64,000 nucleotides of DNA from Parapedobacter lycopersici (GCF_024643285.1 NZ_JAMSLW010000004.1:124001-188000), one strand, 5' to 3'; counted from the first letter of the stretch, positions 10,420 to 20,304 are shown. Made by a program: numbers and translations. Notes: generated from the letters alone by a model not told the origin.

Positions 10420-11430
10420 TCACACCGTTTTATGCTGGCGTGCCGCTGCTTTCTCTTCTACTGCGGCAATAACTGTCGGAAAGAAATCCGTGCCGTGCAA
10501 TTTCCCCGCGTGGCGCAGTCCGCCCGGACTGAACACGTTTATTTCCATTAACTTATCCCCAACCACATCGAGCCCAACCAGGAACATACCGTCCTTCCTG
10601 AGTTTCGGAGATACTACCTCCACAATTTCCCGGAGCTGTTTGTTCAGGGTCGCCTTCTTTGCTTCGCCCCCCTGGTGGATATTGCTCCGGATGTCTCCCC
10701 CCTGCTGAACCCGCCGGATAGCGGCCGGTTTGCCATCCGTCTCCAGCACCTCCCCATTCATCAAAAACAGCCGGATATCCCCTTTCCGGGCTTCCGGCAG
10801 GTATTCCTGGGCGATGGCAAAACCATCCCTGCAGATGGCTTCTACGATCTGTTTCATGTTTTTGCTGTCTTTTTTATCAACGAGAAACACATTCTTCCCG
10901 CCGGATCCTTTCAGCGGCTTAAGAATAATTTTGCGCTGGTGGTCGCGGTAAAAGGCCTCCACATCAGCTATATTCCGGGTAATGATGGTCGAAGGGCGTA
11001 CCTTTTCCGGAAAATACTGCAGGTACATTTTACTGGATGCATAAACCAGCCCATGGGGGTCATTAAGTACAGTAACGCCCTGTTCGCTGGCAAGCTGGCC
11101 AAAGGAAATACCGGCATCCTGCGCCCATGGCCGGCTTTCCAGGTCCGCTGCCGGGTCATTCCGGAGGAGTAGTGCGTCCAATTGTTTCGCACTGACCGGT
11201 TCCTTCTTGCTCTCACGCAGGGCCTCCAGTAAGGTGGCGGGCGACCGGAATTCCCGATCCGGCAGGCTGCGCGCGTGGGCTCCCATCTGCCCGTTAGCCA
11301 GGTAAGCCAGGTCGCCCACACCGATATAATATACCCGATGACCCATCCGATGGGCTTCCAGCGCAAGTCCGGTAGTCGTATATTCAGCCCCTTCCTTGTG
11401 TGTTTGATTAACTAAAAATCCAATGTTCAT
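10420..11430 (-). CDS. GshB-like ATP-grasp ligase (glutathione synthetase family)
   Basis: 336 residues. An N-terminal GshB-type preATP domain is followed by an ATP-grasp fold: KPLKGSGGKN at 171-180 as the glycine-rich loop, AQEYLPEARKGDIR around 208-220, and the Mg-binding end GLDVVGDKLMEINVFSPGG with D288, E296 and N298. Such enzymes join a carboxylate to an amine via an acyl-phosphate. True glutathione synthesis also needs GshA, which is not nearby. This is the last gene of a three-gene leftward cassette, 29 bp after the DUF1704 peptidase. The context points to a peptide or amino-acid ligase whose product is acted on by the neighbouring hydrolases; that is inference. Confidence 0.88.
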   Translation of the reverse strand: MNIGFLVNQTHKEGAEYTTTGLALEAHRMGHRVYYIGVGDLAYLANGQMGAHARSLPDREFRSPATLLEALRESKKEPVSAKQLDALLLRNDPAADLESRPWAQDAGISFGQLASEQGVTVLNDPHGLVYASSKMYLQYFPEKVRPSTIITRNIADVEAFYRDHQRKIILKPLKGSGGKNVFLVDKKDSKNMKQIVEAICRDGFAIAQEYLPEARKGDIRLFLMNGEVLETDGKPAAIRRVQQGGDIRSNIHQGGEAKKATLNKQLREIVEVVSPKLRKDGMFLVGLDVVGDKLMEINVFSPGGLRHAGKLHGTDFFPTVIAAVEEKAAARQHKTV

Positions 11431-11459
11431 GTTGCGTGAGTTAACGATAAAAGGGTTAA

Positions 11460-13304
11460 TTAACCGATCATTTTAAAAATGCTGCCACCGTTTTTGATAT
11501 CATCCAGCCGGTCGATGAATGGTTTATCCAGAAACCTGGGGCGCAGTGGCGACGGATTAAGCAGGCCGCGGTGCATCAGTTCCTCGATGACCGGCAAATA
11601 GTCCTGCCTGATTTTGCCAACAAGCAGTTTGGTGATATCCTTTCCCTGCTTAATGTACTCGATGACGTTGAGCAGGCCCTTCAGGTATACCGCATCCTTG
11701 GTGAGCCCTCCGCCGCGGTATACCCGCATGGCAATATGAAATGCTGTTTCCGACTTAAACTGATATTTATCCGTCAGCATAAAAAAAGTATCCGAAAACG
11801 AATTGCCGGCAATCATGTGGTATACGGCCACCACGCGTGCCGCAAGTATACGGATCCGCTCATTGGTAAGCCCCCCGACCAGGTATTCCGCAAGTACGGC
11901 AAGTCCTTCCTGCAACTGTTCATAACCCGGTACGCCCAGGTAAAACAATTTTAGCGGCTGCGCCATCCCGTTGTAGTAGGTTACCACATGCGTACCGATC
12001 TCATGCTGGACCAGCGCAAATGCCCGGGCCCGGGAAATCCTGTACCGGCTGCTGACATTCAGCGTGCCCCGGGAAACCATCACCCCTTCCACATCTTCCC
12101 GGATCCGGACGGCCGTCGATACCTGTCCGTACTGCTGTTTTAAGAATTGCAGTTCGGTTTCAGCCAGGCTGGCAAACTCGGCTGCCTGCAGCATTTCACG
12201 CTGTTTCGGCAATTCGCTGGGTTCGGCGGCGACCAGTATGGCGCGGGCCGTCTCAAGCAGGCTTTCCTCGATATTTCCGAAAAGCTGCTGGCTGCTGTAG
12301 AGGAAATCGGGCTTCTCCCGCTCACCGAGCATGTTCAGCATGCGGTCGATCTCCTTCCGCTTGTCGCGGAACAGATACGCAAGTGTCGGGTCCGAAATGT
12401 GCTCAATAGGCAGGTTGTACAGTTTGCGTTTAATCAGCTCGGGGTCTATCGGCATCGGACGGTAGTGGAACGAAGGTGTCCCGAGGTACTTGCTTTTGGA
12501 AAAGCCGGCCCACTCCTCTTTCACGTTGATCGGTGTTACCAGCAACAGAAAATCAAACAGCTGGGTATACTCGGCCAGCTTGTCATCAATTTCCCATACC
12601 AGTTCATGCAGCTCCGTCGTTCCCAGCATTTCAAAATGCGCCGCATTGTACGATGTCTGCATGCGCACAAATTCAAAAAAGCTTTTTTTCAGTGCTTTGC
12701 CAAACCCTTCACGCAGTTCCCGCAGGATCAACGGGTAAGGCAATCCGGTTTGCTGGTCGATGTAAATGGGGGCGATTTCAAGGCCGATCAGGATAATCTC
12801 ACTTTTACGGGCTTCCTCATTGCCCATCAGCGCATCATAGTAAGGCGGCGCAGGCATTTTTTTCTCCCGCTCCAGCACGGCCTCCATCTTGCTGCTCTGG
12901 CTCAGCCGGATTTCCTGCAATTCGTTCCGCAGTTTTTCGGCCACCGGCAACGCGCTTTTCTGGTTCAGGTGAATGGTAAATGCCGCAGCATCCGCCTGAT
13001 CCGAAAGCCATACCTCAAGCAGCATGAAGCCGCCAAATTTATCGGCCAGGTTATTGGCAATCGTTTTGATCGTCAGCCGGGTCGATTCATCATCCGGGTG
13101 AGCGGACGAAACCAGGTATGCCGATTCCGTTTCGCCGAGTGTAGGCGTAAATGTGTCTTCAGCCCCGGGCGGTATCCGATAAACCAGCAAAAAAGGCACC
13201 GGGCGATCCAGGTGCAGTTTTCCGCCATTCGGCAGGTCCATATGCAACGGGTTACCCTTTTTGAGTTTGTCGGCAATACGGTTGATGTATTTTTCAGTGG
13301 TCAT
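11460..13304 (-). CDS. DUF1704 / QEGLA-motif metallopeptidase (MATCAP-like)
   Basis: About 614 residues from the ATG at 13304, which has AAAGGAAAGG just upstream; an ATG at 13331 would lengthen it by nine residues. The C-terminal half carries HEIGTH (H434, E435, H439; an HExxxH zinc motif) and QEGLAVLAEYL with E466 as likely third ligand. This is the TIGR02421 family, in older databases called flavohemoglobin expression-modulating QEGLA protein. The eukaryotic DUF1704 protein MATCAP is a tubulin tyrosine carboxypeptidase, so a carboxypeptidase-like activity is a fair prediction. The start overlaps the upstream amidohydrolase gene by 11 bp, implying translational coupling. The N-terminal 300 residues are unassigned. 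Confidence 0.88.
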   Translation of the reverse strand: MTTEKYINRIADKLKKGNPLHMDLPNGGKLHLDRPVPFLLVYRIPPGAEDTFTPTLGETESAYLVSSAHPDDESTRLTIKTIANNLADKFGGFMLLEVWLSDQADAAAFTIHLNQKSALPVAEKLRNELQEIRLSQSSKMEAVLEREKKMPAPPYYDALMGNEEARKSEIILIGLEIAPIYIDQQTGLPYPLILRELREGFGKALKKSFFEFVRMQTSYNAAHFEMLGTTELHELVWEIDDKLAEYTQLFDFLLLVTPINVKEEWAGFSKSKYLGTPSFHYRPMPIDPELIKRKLYNLPIEHISDPTLAYLFRDKRKEIDRMLNMLGEREKPDFLYSSQQLFGNIEESLLETARAILVAAEPSELPKQREMLQAAEFASLAETELQFLKQQYGQVSTAVRIREDVEGVMVSRGTLNVSSRYRISRARAFALVQHEIGTHVVTYYNGMAQPLKLFYLGVPGYEQLQEGLAVLAEYLVGGLTNERIRILAARVVAVYHMIAGNSFSDTFFMLTDKYQFKSETAFHIAMRVYRGGGLTKDAVYLKGLLNVIEYIKQGKDITKLLVGKIRQDYLPVIEELMHRGLLNPSPLRPRFLDKPFIDRLDDIKNGGSIFKMIG

Positions 13305-14091
13305 CGGGCCTTTCCTTTTGCTTTTTATCAAGCATATCCAGTAAATACGGGATACTGCACTGCAGCAGCTGTTTCAAGTCGTTCAGGTGCTGTATGTCCA
13401 CCCTGCCGGTCCATTCGTCCATAAATACTTTTTTAAACTCCAGCGATAAAACACAACCGTACGATCCGTACCGATCATTTATCCATTCCGAGAATCCACC
13501 GCCGCCAAATTTGATATTCTCCCGTACGTCAGCCTGGTGATTGCCAATCCGGTGGTGCGTTAAAAAATGGGTGAAACGCTCGCCGAAGGTTTTCCATATT
13601 CCATGATTGTGTGCCGTCCCGATATTGATTTCCGGGTTTTCCGCCGGATCGGCTTCGGCATCGGGCGATTCGCGCCGGTAATTGTAACTGTGGATATCCA
13701 GCACCACAAAACCACCAAATGCCGCTATCGTGTCGTCCAGCAGCGCAGCTATATCCCCGTAAAAGGCATCGTATTGCTGCAACAGTTCCTGACACAGGGC
13801 GTCGGGCAGCTCCGGCTGCCAGACCTGCAACCCCCATGCGTCCTCGGGCCGGTGGTATATAGCGCTGTCGCGACGGCGGTTTAAGTCGAGCTGAAACCGC
13901 GATGTCCGTACCGTTACCCGGTTCACGGGCAGCATGGCCAGGTAATCCGTGTACGGGTCCTCTTCCCGAAAACGTTCATGTTCCTGCAGGGTTAGGTACG
14001 CACGCAGTGCGCGGTCAACAGTATGGCCATCGTGTATCGCCGCAGCGACAATGGGACTTTGTGCCCTTGTTATCGAATAGTGTAACTTCAT
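13294..14091 (-). CDS. N-formylglutamate amidohydrolase-like protein
   Basis: 265 residues of the FGase family, related in fold to zinc carboxypeptidases. Conserved pieces are IHDGH (19-23), SRFQLDLNR (64-72) and DIHSYNYRR (132-140). The characterised family enzyme removes the formyl group from N-formyl-L-glutamate in histidine breakdown, but no hut genes are present here. Instead it is first in a cassette with a DUF1704 peptidase and an ATP-grasp ligase, so it probably hydrolyses another small amide or acyl-amino acid. Its stop overlaps the next start by 11 bp. Promoter not clearly identified upstream of 14091. Confidence 0.87.
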   Translation of the reverse strand: MKLHYSITRAQSPIVAAAIHDGHTVDRALRAYLTLQEHERFREEDPYTDYLAMLPVNRVTVRTSRFQLDLNRRRDSAIYHRPEDAWGLQVWQPELPDALCQELLQQYDAFYGDIAALLDDTIAAFGGFVVLDIHSYNYRRESPDAEADPAENPEINIGTAHNHGIWKTFGERFTHFLTHHRIGNHQADVRENIKFGGGGFSEWINDRYGSYGCVLSLEFKKVFMDEWTGRVDIQHLNDLKQLLQCSIPYLLDMLDKKQKERPDDH

Positions 14092-14310: not shown

Positions 14311-15507
14311 ATGAGCATCAAAATCGTAAATAAAAACAACACACTAATAATCAGCATATTAATAGGAATATCCAGCTTTAATTTTTCGAGCTGTACCATC
14401 GGATCGTCCAAAACGAACGAACGGGAACAGGCTGCGCTGGCGTTGCCCGTACACGTCGTCGACACGTCCACAGCCATTACCGTAAGGGACTATCTGGGAA
14501 CGATAGAAGGCACAGCCAATGTAGAAATACGTCCACAGGTTGAGGGCATTTTGGAAGAGATTTACGTGGATGAGGGAGCCTTTGTAAAAAAAGGTCAAAA
14601 ACTTTTTAAGGTCAATCCGCTGCCTTACCAGGAGCAGCTCAATAATGCGATCGCCAGTGAAAATGTAGAGAAGGCCAAGCTGGAAAATGCCAAGCTGGAA
14701 GTCGAGCGTTTACGGCCACTGGTAGTGAATGAAGTAATTTCAGAAGTGCGGCTCCGTACAGCTAAATCGGAATACGATGTAGCCAAAGCGTCGCTCGACC
14801 AGGCCACTGCCGCCGTTGCCACGGCACGGATTAATGTGGGATTTACCACCATAAAGGCACCGGTAAGCGGCTACATCGGACGGATTCCGAAACGGATCGG
14901 AAACCTGGTTACCAAAAGCGATTCGGAACCCATGACCGTATTATCCGATACGCACGATGTATTTGTGTATTTCGCCATGAGCGAATCGGATTTTCTCTAC
15001 TTCAACAAAAGACAGAATCAGCCGGAAACGGAAAAGACCGCGCAGGAAGACACATTGGGCAAATCGAAGTCGTCCGACCTGATTCCTTACGTATCACTCG
15101 TGTTGGCTGATGGAGAAACCTATCCGGAAAAGGGTGTGGTTGACGCGGTCAATGGACAGGTAAACCGTACCACCGGAGCCATATCCCTGCGCGCTACATT
15201 TCCCAACCCTGATAATATCCTCCGCTCCGGAAACAGCGGCACGCTGAAGATGGAAGAAAGCCAATCCGGCGTATTGTTAGTCCCCCAGGTTGCCACAACC
15301 GCTTTACAGGACAAAATATTTGTCTATACACTGACACCGGAGAACACCGTAAAACAACGAGCGATTAAAGTGGGAGGAAGCAGCGGTTCCAATTACATCG
15401 TGGAGGCGGGCCTCCAGGTGGGCGACCGGATTATCCTGACCGGTTTTGATAAGCTTACCGACGGCATGGAGATTCAGCCCATTATAAAAAACCTCTCGGG
15501 CAGTTAG
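14311..15507 (+). CDS. RND efflux periplasmic adaptor lipoprotein (AcrA/MexA type)
   Basis: 398 residues. The N-terminus is a lipoprotein signal with the lipobox-like FSSC and Cys28 as lipidation site. Lipoyl halves (TANVEIRPQVEGILEEIYV and GFTTIKAPVSGYIGRIPKR) flank an alpha-hairpin rich in EKAKLENAKLE, followed by the beta-barrel and membrane-proximal domains (VVDAVNGQVNRTTGAISLR). It is the first gene of a full tripartite operon: adaptor, pump (15609) and outer-membrane channel (18823). It is of the AcrA type, unlike the shorter adaptor at 1030-2097. Confidence 0.95.
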   Translation: MSIKIVNKNNTLIISILIGISSFNFSSCTIGSSKTNEREQAALALPVHVVDTSTAITVRDYLGTIEGTANVEIRPQVEGILEEIYVDEGAFVKKGQKLFKVNPLPYQEQLNNAIASENVEKAKLENAKLEVERLRPLVVNEVISEVRLRTAKSEYDVAKASLDQATAAVATARINVGFTTIKAPVSGYIGRIPKRIGNLVTKSDSEPMTVLSDTHDVFVYFAMSESDFLYFNKRQNQPETEKTAQEDTLGKSKSSDLIPYVSLVLADGETYPEKGVVDAVNGQVNRTTGAISLRATFPNPDNILRSGNSGTLKMEESQSGVLLVPQVATTALQDKIFVYTLTPENTVKQRAIKVGGSSGSNYIVEAGLQVGDRIILTGFDKLTDGMEIQPIIKNLSGS

Positions 15508-15608
15508 TACACCTGGCTTCTTACTGATTTTTTAACAGCTTTTAATATTGCCGTGCGCATGTAACAGCCTCCCTCGGGCTATTGCGCAGGCAGAACAAGT
15601 TACTTTTT

Positions 15609-18600
15609 ATGCTGAAAACATTCATCAACAGACCGGTCTTAGCTACCGTAGTATCCACGTTGCTCGTCATCATCGGGCTGGTTAGTATGTGGCAGCTGGC
15701 CATTACCCGTTTTCCGGAAATTGCCCCGCCAAGTGTTACGGTATCCACGTCTTATCCCGGTGCAAATGCCGAAACGGTGGCCGGTGCCGTGCTCCTGCCC
15801 ATTGAAGAGGCGATCAACGGCGTGCCCGACATGACGTACATCCGTTCGTCGGCCACCAACTCCGGGTCGGGCAATATCAATGTCTTTTTTGAAACCGGAA
15901 CCGATCCAAACCAGGCAGCGGTGAATGTACAGACCCGTGTTTCAAAGGCCAACGCCAATATTCCCGCCGAGGTAATCGAATCGGGCATTACCGTAGAGCC
16001 CCGGCAGAGCGGGATCATCATGACCATCGACATCTACAGCGATCACCCCGATACGGTATACGACGAAACATTCCTCCAGGCTTATGCACAGATTAATCTC
16101 ATGCGTGAGCTATCACGCGTGGATGGCGTCGGGCAGGTCAGGCGCGTCGGCGCGCGTGACTATTCCATCCGTACCTGGCTGAACCCCGAAAAGATGGCAC
16201 TCTACGGGTTGGTGCCCCAGGATGTGACCGCTGCAATACGCGACCAGAATTTCGAGATCGCTCCGGGTAAATTCGGTGAAACCTCAGATGAAGCTTTTGA
16301 AACCATTCTCCGGCACAAAGGCCGGTTTACGCTGCCTGAGGAGTTCGAAAAGATTGTCATCAAAACCAATGAAGATGGGTCAGTACTCTACCTCCGCGAC
16401 ATTGCCCGGGTTGAACTGGGCGCTACTAATCTCGGGAGCGACAACAAGGTAAACGGGTATCCCGGACTAACGCTGAATATCATCCAGACATCCGGCTCAA
16501 ATGCGCGGGAAATTGACATTCAGATCAGGGATGTGCTGGAACGGCTATCCGGAAATTTTCCGGATGGCATCCACTACAACATCAGCTACAGTGTACGCGA
16601 CCAGATTGACGAGTCGATCAGCCAGGTACAGCACACTATTTTTGAAGCCTTTATCCTGGTCTTTCTCATTGTATTTATTTTCCTGCAGGATCTCCGTTCT
16701 ACGCTCATACCCGCCATCGCGATACCGGTATCGCTCGTCGGTACGTTCTTTTTCCTGCAATTGTTCGGGTTTTCGATCAATGTGCTGACCATGTTTGCCC
16801 TCGTGCTTGCGATCGGGATTGTGGTCGACGACGCCATTGTGGTCGTCGAAGCCGTACACCAGAAAATGGAACGGACCACCCTCGGCCCCCGGAAAGCCAC
16901 CCTGTCGACCATGGGCGAAATTACCAGTGCCATCCTTTCCATCACCATGGTCATGGCCGCGGTATTCTTTCCTGTGGGCTTCATGAGCGGGCCATCGGGT
17001 ATATTCTTCCAGCAGTTTGCCTATACGCTGGCCACGGCCATCCTGATATCAGCACTGAATGCCCTCACCCTTACGCCCGCACTTTGCGCGCTGCTGCTCA
17101 AACGGCCGAAGCACCTGGATGAACAGGCACCCGACGCCCCGCAGGAAAAACAGGCATTATCGGGAGTGAACCGGCTTAAAGACCGGTTCTTCACGGCATT
17201 CAACACAGCCTTCGATTCCTTTTCCAGCAAATACATCGGGTCATTGCATTTCCTGATCAAACGGAAGGCACTCAGCATCGCGGGATTGGTAGTCATCACG
17301 CTACTGGGCATCTGGGTGATGGGCCGGACACCATCGAGCTTCATCCCTACGGAAGATGACAGCTTCATCACCTATTCCATGGCCATGCCACCGGGAGCCT
17401 CGCTCGCCCGTACAACAGACGCATTGGCCAAGGCCGACAGCATTCTCCAGCAGCGCGAAGCAATTGAGGGAATGACGACGGTTTCCGGTTATAACGCCAT
17501 TGACGCGAGTGCCAGCTCCGCATTTGCTGTGGGGTACATTAACCTCAAGCCCACAAAGGAGCGGGGCGAAATCCGGAACATCAACGCCTTTATGGATACC
17601 ATACGCAAGGACCTGGAACAGATTAACGAAGCCTCATTCAGCGTATTCCCAAGACCTACCGTACAGGGATTCGGTGATTTCTCCGGCCTGGAGTTTGTGC
17701 TGCAGGACCGGATGGGCGGGTCTATGTATGATTTCGGGCTGGCAGCAGATTCGTTCATCACCATCCTGGAAGGCCGGAAGGAAATCGCATCCGCCTACAC
17801 GACCTTCAACGCCAACTTCCCCCAATACGAACTGGCCATTGACCCCGTGAAGGCAAAAGCCCTGGGCGTGGATGTCAACGACCTGATGCGTACCGTCCAG
17901 GGGTATTACGGCCGTGTGCGGGTGAGCGATTTTAACCGGTTCGGGCGGCAGTACCGGCTGTACATGCAGGCCGATTTCGAATACCGCCAGAATCCGGAAT
18001 CATTCAAGTCCATCTTTGTTCGCAACGACAAGGGGGAAATGGTGCCGGCCAACACACTGATCACCCTGAATAAGGTGATGGGGCCCGAAATCGTAAACCG
18101 TTATAACCTGTACAATGCCATTGCGATCAACGCCAGTCCTGCGGAAGGTTACAGTACCGGCGAGGCCATGGACGCCATGGAAGAAGCGGCAGCCGAACAC
18201 CTGCCGGCAAATTACAGCTATGAATGGACGGGAATGAGCCTGGAAGAACGGCAATCGGGCAGTCAGACCACGCTGATTTTCACACTCAGCATCCTGTTTG
18301 TCTATTTCCTCCTTGCGGCACAGTATGAAAGTTACATCCTGCCGCTGGCCATTTTACTGTCGGTACCCGTGGGATTAATCGGTGTTTATGCCGCCGTAAA
18401 CCTCGTGGGACTTGAAAACAACATTTACGTGCAGGTCGGGCTCATCATGCTGATCGGCCTGCTGGCCAAGAATGCCATCCTTATTGTGGAATTTGCTGTG
18501 CAGCAACGCCGGGCGGGACTGAGCATTCTAGAGTCGGCAATTGAAGGCGCGCGCATGCGTCTGCGCCCGATCCTGATGACCTCCCTGGCATTTGTGGCCG

Positions 18601-18788
18601 GATTGATTCCGCTGATGTGGACCGTCGGCCCTTCCGCCCAGGGTAATCATTCCATCAGTTTCGGTACGGCCGGCGGGATGCTGGCCGGCGTTACGCTGGG
18701 TATTTTTATTATCCCCGTCTTGTATGTGATATTCAAGCACCTCGACGAACGGGTTAAAAACAGGCTGAAAACGGAAGACGAAGACTGA
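15609..18788 (+). CDS. RND multidrug efflux pump subunit (AcrB type, HAE1)
   Basis: About 1059 residues. I chose the ATG at 15609 ([17 protein letters not shown]); the TTG at 15582 adds a nine-residue tail that does not fit the family. Twelve membrane helices are expected. The proton-relay aspartate pair is present in helix 4 ([14 protein letters not shown]) and the helix 10 lysine in [12 protein letters not shown]. Two large periplasmic porter/docking regions are complete. It forms an inner-membrane trimer exporting drugs, dyes, bile salts or solvents with the adjacent adaptor and channel. Intact, with no frameshift. Confidence 0.96.
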
Positions 18789-18822
18789 GGGGCGGACCAT
18801 TGAAAAATAAAATAATGAACAG

Positions 18823-20304
18823 ATGAAACAATCCAGTATGCAATATAGCCGATTAGCGTTGCTTTTTATTCCGCTGCTCGTCGCGTCGTGCAACGTAGGG
18901 AAAGATTATGTCCGACCGGATCTGGATCTGCCGGATACGTACCGGCAGGCCGATAGCCTGAACAGCGACACCACCCATATCGGCGATATCCCCTGGCGCG
19001 ACTTTTTTACTGACAGCACCCTGGTCGGACTGATTGATACCGCCATCGCCAATAATTATGACATGCAGGCGGCGCTGAAAAACATCGAGATCGCCAACCA
19101 GTCGCTTCGGCAGTCGCGGGCGGCTTTCCTCCCCGAAGTGGAGGCACAGCTTGGCGGTGTCAATCAGCAGTGGCGGTCGCGTGATTATTATTCCAATCCG
19201 TCGTCCAACTGGTACGAACGGCCCGGCGAGGGCGAGCCACCCGAAAACCTGTATCGATTGCAGTCGCAGTATTCTTCCGAAATCAATGTCAGCTGGGAGC
19301 TCGACATCTGGGGTAAAATACGCCGGCAAAAGGAAAGCGCGCTGGCCGAATACTTACAAACCTATGAGGCCCGGAAAGCCGTGCAGACCGCACTCGTTGC
19401 GGCCATTGCCGATGGTTATTACAACCTGCTGATGCTGGACGAGCAGCTGGAGGTGGCGCGGCGCAACCTGCAATTAAACGACAGTACGTTACACATTGTC
19501 AAATTGCAGCGCGATGCGGGAGAGGTAACTGCCCTGGCTGTACAGCAGACAGAGTCGCAGATGCTGGTCGCCGCCTCATTAATCCCCCAGTTGGAACAGG
19601 AAGTCACCGTACAGGAAAATACACTGATGGCCCTGACAGGACGAATGCCGCGGGATGTTGTGCGCTCCGGCCGGCTGGATGATTTTGTTACCGAGGATAA
19701 CCTGGCGTCAGGTGTTCCGCTGTCTATGGTAGCCAACCGGCCCGACGTGCGGGAGGCCGAACTGGCCCTCCGGTCGGCCAACGCACAGGTGGGGGTAGCC
19801 CAGGCTTACCGCTACCCTGCATTGACCATCAATGCTTCGGGCGGACTGAATGCGATGTTACCGCAGAACTGGTTCAATATTCCGGGTGCACTCTTCGGCG
19901 GAATTATCGGCGGGGTTACGCAGCCGATATTCAGTGGACGGCGGTTGAAAACCCAGCACGAAATCGCCAGGCTGGAGCGTGATAAAGCGGAGCTTGGTTT
20001 CCAGCAGGTGGTGCTCGATGCCGTTAACGAGGTAACCAACGCACTGGCCATGATAGACAAGTTACATGAACAGTATGAAATTGCGGAAAAGCGGGTAACT
20101 ACTTCCCGTTTGGGGGTTAAAAATGCAAACCTGCTCTTCCGGAGCGGTTACGCAACCTACCTGGAGGTGATCACTGCCCAAAGCAGTGCACTTACCAGTG
20201 AATTGGACCTGGTGGCTGTAAAACAGCAGCAGCTGAATGCCAAAGTAGCGCTATATAAGGCGTTAGGCGGTGGGTGGAAGGATGTCCGTGAGGATAACAG
20301 TTAG
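18823..20304 (+). CDS. Outer-membrane efflux lipoprotein (TolC/OprM, NodT family)
   Basis: 493 residues. Lipoprotein signal ending LLVASC with Cys23. Two outer-membrane efflux repeats are visible, each with long helical hairpins and the family sequences ANNYDMQAALKNIEIANQSL, VSWELDIWGKIRRQKES and ANRPDVREAELALRSANAQV. It forms the trimeric exit duct for the pump at 15609-18788, 34 bp upstream. Its last 42 bp overlap the convergent thioredoxin-fold gene, so the two 3-prime ends are shared and no terminator separates them. Confidence 0.95.
   Translation: MKQSSMQYSRLALLFIPLLVASCNVGKDYVRPDLDLPDTYRQADSLNSDTTHIGDIPWRDFFTDSTLVGLIDTAIANNYDMQAALKNIEIANQSLRQSRAAFLPEVEAQLGGVNQQWRSRDYYSNPSSNWYERPGEGEPPENLYRLQSQYSSEINVSWELDIWGKIRRQKESALAEYLQTYEARKAVQTALVAAIADGYYNLLMLDEQLEVARRNLQLNDSTLHIVKLQRDAGEVTALAVQQTESQMLVAASLIPQLEQEVTVQENTLMALTGRMPRDVVRSGRLDDFVTEDNLASGVPLSMVANRPDVREAELALRSANAQVGVAQAYRYPALTINASGGLNAMLPQNWFNIPGALFGGIIGGVTQPIFSGRRLKTQHEIARLERDKAELGFQQVVLDAVNEVTNALAMIDKLHEQYEIAEKRVTTSRLGVKNANLLFRSGYATYLEVITAQSSALTSELDLVAVKQQQLNAKVALYKALGGGWKDVREDNS

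Follow-up and report, generated by a model that had tools for sequence, protein, structure and literature searches.

A conserved bacterial cassette joining a MATCAP-type peptidase, a GshB-like ATP-grasp ligase and an FGase-like hydrolase, and its likeness to RimK-RimB-AstE

A stretch of 64,000 nucleotides from Parapedobacter lycopersici (NZ_JAMSLW010000004.1:124001-188000; the window) carries three minus-strand genes at 10420-14091, transcribed in the order FGase (an N-formylglutamate amidohydrolase-like enzyme), MATCAP/QEGLA metallopeptidase and GshB-like ATP-grasp ligase. Synteny, gene fusion and co-distribution show that the three genes form one functional unit. We favour, with about even confidence, the explanation that this unit is a cytosolic ligase/carboxypeptidase/N-acyl-amino-acid-hydrolase cassette, designed like RimK-RimB-AstE, in which residues, probably acidic ones, would be written onto a peptide or protein tail through amide links and erased again. 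Its genes and domains, with lengths in amino acids (aa), are as follows.

13294-14091, minus strand: FGase-like zinc amidohydrolase, 265 aa, predicted intact (PF05013, 78 bits; fold; conserved residues)
11460-13304, minus strand: MATCAP/QEGLA metallopeptidase, 614 aa (PF08014, 301 bits; TIGR02421, 345 bits)
12639-13304, minus strand: N-terminal domain of the MATCAP protein, about residues 10-231 of its 623-aa form, a degenerate FGase domain that is probably catalytically dead (model and hhalign)
11460-12545, minus strand: C-terminal MATCAP catalytic domain, residues 263-623, with the HEIGTH and QEGLA zinc site (match to 7z5g)
10420-11430, minus strand: GshB-like ATP-grasp ligase, 336 aa (PF02955, 174 bits; NF009110, 407.8 bits; 1gsa alignment)

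A preliminary description of this DNA had placed an FGase, a PF08014/TIGR02421 peptidase and a GshB-like ATP-grasp enzyme here, and the cassette was verified at these positions. A mechanical call starts the MATCAP gene at a TTG (13331; 623 aa), whereas an internal ATG at 13304 yields 614 aa; the ATG was chosen because the alignment of relatives begins there. With this start, the FGase and MATCAP genes overlap by 11 bp (13294-13304), the MATCAP and ligase genes are 29 bp apart (11431-11459), and the zinc-site residues are H434, E435, H439 and E466 (H443, E444, H448 and E475 from the TTG), exactly as described earlier. Throughout the cassette, substitutions are about 2-5 times commoner at third codon positions than at the first two, the pattern of working genes.

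Among 296 Bacteroidota genomes, a strong QEGLA gene was found in 15, in addition to one divergent solo copy (G186) and one trace match (G035). A close ligase of the PRK12458 type (at least 396 bits; next best 215) occurs in exactly those 15 genomes, and it adjoins the QEGLA gene in all of them. The naive chance of identical genome sets is 1.6e-25, a figure that ignores relatedness. Beyond Bacteroidota the sampling consisted of plasmid records, 127 of which carry MATCAP relatives (79 from Sinorhizobium). The FGase-MATCAP-ligase order is kept in Parapedobacter, Olivibacter and Niabella as well as on rhizobial megaplasmids, including S. meliloti pSymB; such ordered conservation across phyla is far beyond chance. 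The preliminary description had proposed surveying the neighbourhoods of TIGR02421 proteins, and there the ATP-grasp and FGase partners are indeed conserved and partly fused.

The cassette exists in two forms. Form I, that of the window, comprises a separate FGase gene, a MATCAP of about 615 aa and a type a ligase. In form II, a type b ligase is followed by FGase and a short MATCAP. The latter two make up a single fusion protein of 662-667 aa in Photobacterium, Vibrio and several Bacteroidota, while other Bacteroidota (L044, L045, L047, L049) encode them separately. The MATCAP domain and the ligase each yield a tree with the same two groups, so the types co-diverge; in two genomes (G103, G118) the cassette is mixed and contains both ligases. 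Fusion and co-divergence strongly indicate that the enzymes take part in a common process. Both the fused form and the decayed FGase domain on MATCAP had been overlooked in the preliminary description.

The peptidase exceeded the curated cut-offs of both PF08014 (301 vs 27) and TIGR02421 (345 vs 338.65). As phmmer with single MATCAP and FGase proteins retrieved no solved relative, fold comparison was needed. The predicted MATCAP model had a mean predicted local distance difference test score (pLDDT) of 81.8 and a predicted template modelling score of 0.61. Plain Foldseek with the whole model gave no match at E <= 0.001, and the domain assignments rest on VIA-align, a profile match to 7z5g (E 0.0006) and hhalign. 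The C-terminal domain model matched human MATCAP (7z5g) with Z 21.8 and 3.2 A over 287 aa at 20% identity. The structural comparison with MATCAP suggested in the preliminary description thus bore out a MATCAP fold for the peptidase half. The zinc site is also in place, with HExxxH and the downstream Glu set in the MATCAP fold, and H443, E444, H448 and E475 (TTG numbering) were invariant across 16 sequences. Together, the fold and this site predict a metallocarboxypeptidase activity for the MATCAP domain. Human MATCAP/TMCP (KIAA0895L, PF08014) shares the catalytic fold, the HExxxH motif and the downstream active-site Glu. Unlike it, the bacterial protein has an additional FGase domain, probably dead, is linked to an ATP-grasp ligase, and works where there are no microtubules. 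Characterised MATCAP relatives have protein tails as substrates (PMC10499314). The origin of the name 'flavohemoglobin expression-modulating' was not traced in the literature.

The 230-residue N-terminal part of the long MATCAP gave no Pfam match. Its model, however, matched FGase 2q7s (residues 34-226, Z 14.1), and hhalign of 20 such domains against the FGase half of the fused homologues gave 97.9% probability and E 3.8e-13 over columns 13-222, that is, the whole domain. The positions of H20, R65, N71, R72 and H134 of active FGases, which we take by clan analogy to be zinc and substrate ligands, have lost these residues in 20/20. The extra domain is a degenerate FGase domain, probably catalytically dead, which is described here for the first time. 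Hence the form I MATCAP resembles an ancient fusion of FGase and MATCAP in which the FGase half decayed and a separate FGase gene came to replace it, a direction of change that we infer.

The separate FGase was confirmed by PF05013 score (78 vs 28.9 bits), fold and conserved residues (H20, H23, R65, D69-L70-N71-R72, H134 and E218). Its model (pLDDT 88.9) matched FGase 2q7s with Z 23.1 and 3.0 A over 237 aa, and 2odf with Z 22.0. Among active FGase homologues, H20, R65, N71, R72 and E218 are present in 26/26 and H134 in 25/26. Three cassette carriers from three families (G053, G273, G360) have no PF05013 gene in the whole genome. In each of them, a gene of the AstE/AspA type, recognisable by HGNE, DLNR and D-x-H motifs, adjoins the cassette or lies within about 3 kb. 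Such a gene accompanies 3/3 FGase-less and 0/~20 FGase-bearing cassettes (p 0.0006; p = 0.002 when Niabella pedocola, which has neither FGase nor a replacement, is included). An AstE/AspA-type gene therefore stands in for FGase at three cassettes, which is new here. Aspartoacylase and AstE hydrolyse N-acyl acidic amino acids, so the FGase here would do a similar job. Judged by this replacement, the cassette FGase most likely acts on an N-acyl acidic amino acid, more generally than on N-formylglutamate, and the earlier suggestion that it acts on a related amide fits.

In the ligase, R90, K134, K171, R220, R240, R248, D288, E296 and N298 are conserved as catalytic residues. In the 1gsa alignment, both type a and type b ligases keep the residues aligned with those of E. 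coli GshB that are presumably catalytic and carboxylate-binding. Against NF009110 (PRK12458; cut-off 408 bits), the ligase scored 407.8 alone and 408.1 with its neighbours in frame. It failed the glutathione synthase equivalog cut-offs (TIGR01380, 211 vs 299; NF003573, 217 vs 272) as well as the RimK-family cut-off (81.5 vs 143.4). No TTL (tubulin tyrosine ligase) domain was detected in it by hmmscan, the matches being GSH-S, RimK and YheCD models; homology to tubulin tyrosine ligase was rejected on this ground. Of the parallel with tubulin tyrosination drawn in the preliminary description, the peptidase side therefore stands, while the ligase side is not supported, as this enzyme belongs to the GshB/RimK branch.

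Ordinary glutathione metabolism, with a GshB beside two glutathione- or gamma-glutamyl-degrading enzymes, would agree with the annotation of the ligase as glutathione synthetase (PRK12458), with 1gsa as its closest solved structure, and with the PF02951-PF02955 architecture and catalytic residues that it shares with prokaryotic GshB. However, the ligase lies below the TIGR01380 and PRK05246 cut-offs, and the S-P-T-C-I-R-E motif that follows the Mg-binding Asn in E. coli GshB is replaced by S-P-G-G. Moreover, both gshA families tested (PF04107, PF04262) are absent from the host genome, a 3.6-Mb Bacteroidota assembly of 99% completeness, and from nine other carriers. The low scores and the missing gshA families make an ordinary glutathione synthetase unlikely, and a GshB would leave the linked MATCAP and FGase unexplained. 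We thus consider glutathione metabolism very improbable; the preliminary description regarded an ordinary glutathione synthetase with a gshA elsewhere in the genome as fatal to its own proposal, and neither of the two gshA families tested supplies such a gene. Our literature search found nothing joining DUF1704 with ATP-grasp enzymes or FGase with glutathione synthetase, and nothing on S. meliloti gshB2 or the SMb locus tags.

Several of the same genomes carry RimK beside a RimB-type protease and an AstE gene (L079, L081, L085). Thus an ATP-grasp ligase and a hydrolase of the aspartoacylase clan accompany each of two unrelated peptidases. RimK-RimB-AstE, and Rlo of Pseudomonas, resemble our cassette in that one operon holds an aspartoacylase-clan hydrolase besides an ATP-grasp ligase and an unrelated peptidase, although Rlo is without an AstE-type gene. 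The peptidase there is retropepsin-like whereas it is a MATCAP here, and the ligase is RimK rather than GshB-like. The cassette is therefore not a member of RimK-RimB-AstE and at most works like it. This parallel supports a RimK-like write/erase module, while a small N-acyl peptide substrate is equally possible. The host genome itself has a RimK-RimB pair on contig C1 (L075:7371-8734) and lacks AstE (no PF24827 in the genome). A further cassette combines a RimK-like ATP-grasp of about 487 aa, a GCS2 ligase (PF04107) and FGase (L087:4701-8818, L088:3955-7324, L089:5325-9717), with an extra protein, C39-like by eye, in L087 and L089. It likewise has bond-forming enzymes beside FGase, but differs by its GCS2 ligase and by the lack of MATCAP. 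Iyer and colleagues are said to have predicted amidoligase operons with ATP-grasp/peptidase links by comparative genomics in 2009, and DUF1704-type operons may be among them.

A published RNA sequencing study of Photobacterium damselae at 1% vs 3% NaCl lists a 38.4-fold change for A0J47_RS17020 (GshB), 27.5-fold for the next gene, RS17025 (QEGLA), and 52-fold for RimK (RS00405), both the cassette and RimK being up at low salt (PMC10308900). The available part of that paper puts the GshB and QEGLA genes in separate categories and draws no connection between them. In two other Photobacterium records, the ligase gene overlaps a fused FGase-MATCAP gene. The Vibrionaceae cassette appears to respond to low salt, as that study shows for P. 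damselae. RimK-type functions are commoner in brackish than in marine genomes (PMC10219603), and related Rlo proteases are required in hypoosmotic medium (PMC12239564).

In the write/erase explanation that we favour, the ATP-grasp enzyme would attach an incoming amino acid, by way of an amide bond, to the C-terminal carboxylate of an acidic amino acid, peptide or protein tail, because the GshB/RimK catalytic and carboxylate-binding residues are intact. The MATCAP domain would take the C-terminal residue off again, as its fold and zinc site suggest. The FGase, interchangeable with an aspartoacylase/AstE-type enzyme, would hydrolyse the acidic amino acid that remains in N-acyl or side-chain linkage, and the dead FGase domain on MATCAP would probably serve as a docking or substrate-binding module. 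Writing and erasing would take place in the cytosol, much as poly-glutamate is handled by RimK together with RimB. We infer the reaction direction, the amino acid, the target and the dead-domain role. A bolder version, which we consider rather unlikely, is that a C-terminal residue is written and erased on a cytosolic protein upon osmotic change; this would be the counterpart of RimK/S6 and of the cycle of tubulin tyrosination, and the MATCAP detyrosinases of eukaryotes would have come from this bacterial context.

Several points weigh against the write/erase explanation. Solo MATCAPs without partners occur in Pseudoalteromonas, Legionella and others, and Vibrio HDW18 has the fused protein without an adjoining ligase. 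Niabella pedocola has MATCAP and ligase and no FGase at the locus, so FGase is not indispensable. The low-salt response comes from one study of one species, where gene adjacency follows from locus tags and the two other Photobacterium records. Besides, a biosynthetic pathway that includes trimming would account equally well for an operon with both a ligase and hydrolases.

An alternative, which we regard as possible though less probable, is a small-metabolite pathway. Here the ligase would make a short N-acylated acidic peptide like animal N-acetylaspartylglutamate (NAAG), MATCAP would trim the C-terminal amino acid and FGase/AspA would remove the N-acyl group, so maintaining a peptide pool possibly used as osmolyte or storage. 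The enzyme set mirrors the NAAG cycle, which employs a RimK-like ligase, a carboxypeptidase and an aspartoacylase. The replacement of FGase by AstE/AspA, the DLNR and D-x-H motifs common to FGase and AstE, the small-peptide residues of GshB kept in the ligase and the salt-dependent expression in P. damselae all agree with it. On the other hand, no N-acyltransferase or transporter was seen among the conserved partners, the induction occurs at low rather than high salt, and the MATCAP relatives characterised so far act on protein tails. An operon for scavenging or catabolism, whose FGase and MATCAP would break down formylated or acylated peptides with the ligase as a passenger, would suit the two hydrolases among three enzymes and the naming of FGase after N-formylglutamate. 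We find it improbable, since the ligase is the most faithful partner (15/15 genomes), kept even where FGase is lost. The least credible candidate is a cluster for a ribosomally synthesised and post-translationally modified peptide, in which the ATP-grasp enzyme cross-links a small precursor (graspetide) and peptidases process it. The combination of ATP-grasp enzyme and peptidase seen here belongs to the graspetide recipe, but the ligase is GshB-type and no exporter or leader-peptidase partner was seen. Within 2 kb of 24 cassettes, no small open reading frame was conserved between genera except antisense shadows of known genes, so that a cross-genus precursor is missing.

Around the operon, promoter and terminator scans and the Bacteroidetes -33/-7 pattern gave nothing above chance. 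A divergent resistance-nodulation-division (RND) efflux operon (adaptor, pump and outer-membrane factor; window 14311-20304) begins about 220 bp from the cassette, and the RND adaptor gene holds the same place in most Parapedobacter loci. In Vibrionaceae, the gene directly upstream of the cassette is a DUF413/MaoP gene (L053:5805-6209, L054:6915-7274). A rhodanese-type sulfurtransferase is found inside two cassettes (L037:10132-10953, L045:5436-6275), and a DCC thiol oxidoreductase stands beside several cassettes of the same family; these neighbours may point to a sulfur link or be mere synteny. Three Niabella genomes (L032, L033, L035) show frame breaks within their cassette genes, probably sequencing errors. 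Solo MATCAPs of about 425 aa (L050, L056, L057), which have neither ligase nor FGase in their vicinity, form a separate branch. Another solo MATCAP gene lies on OQ572403.1 (L078:4680-5987), labelled Pseudomonas phage Y1 (UNVERIFIED), which is possibly host DNA.

Tubulin detyrosinases of the MATCAP class have come to light recently. The conserved ligase/carboxypeptidase/acylase unit, with its fused form, its dead, regulatory-looking domain and its strong salt response in P. damselae, gives a direct handle on the role of the bacterial MATCAP relatives. The ATP-grasp cassette design, in which a ligase is combined with an unrelated peptidase and a hydrolase of the aspartoacylase clan, has apparently arisen on more than one occasion.

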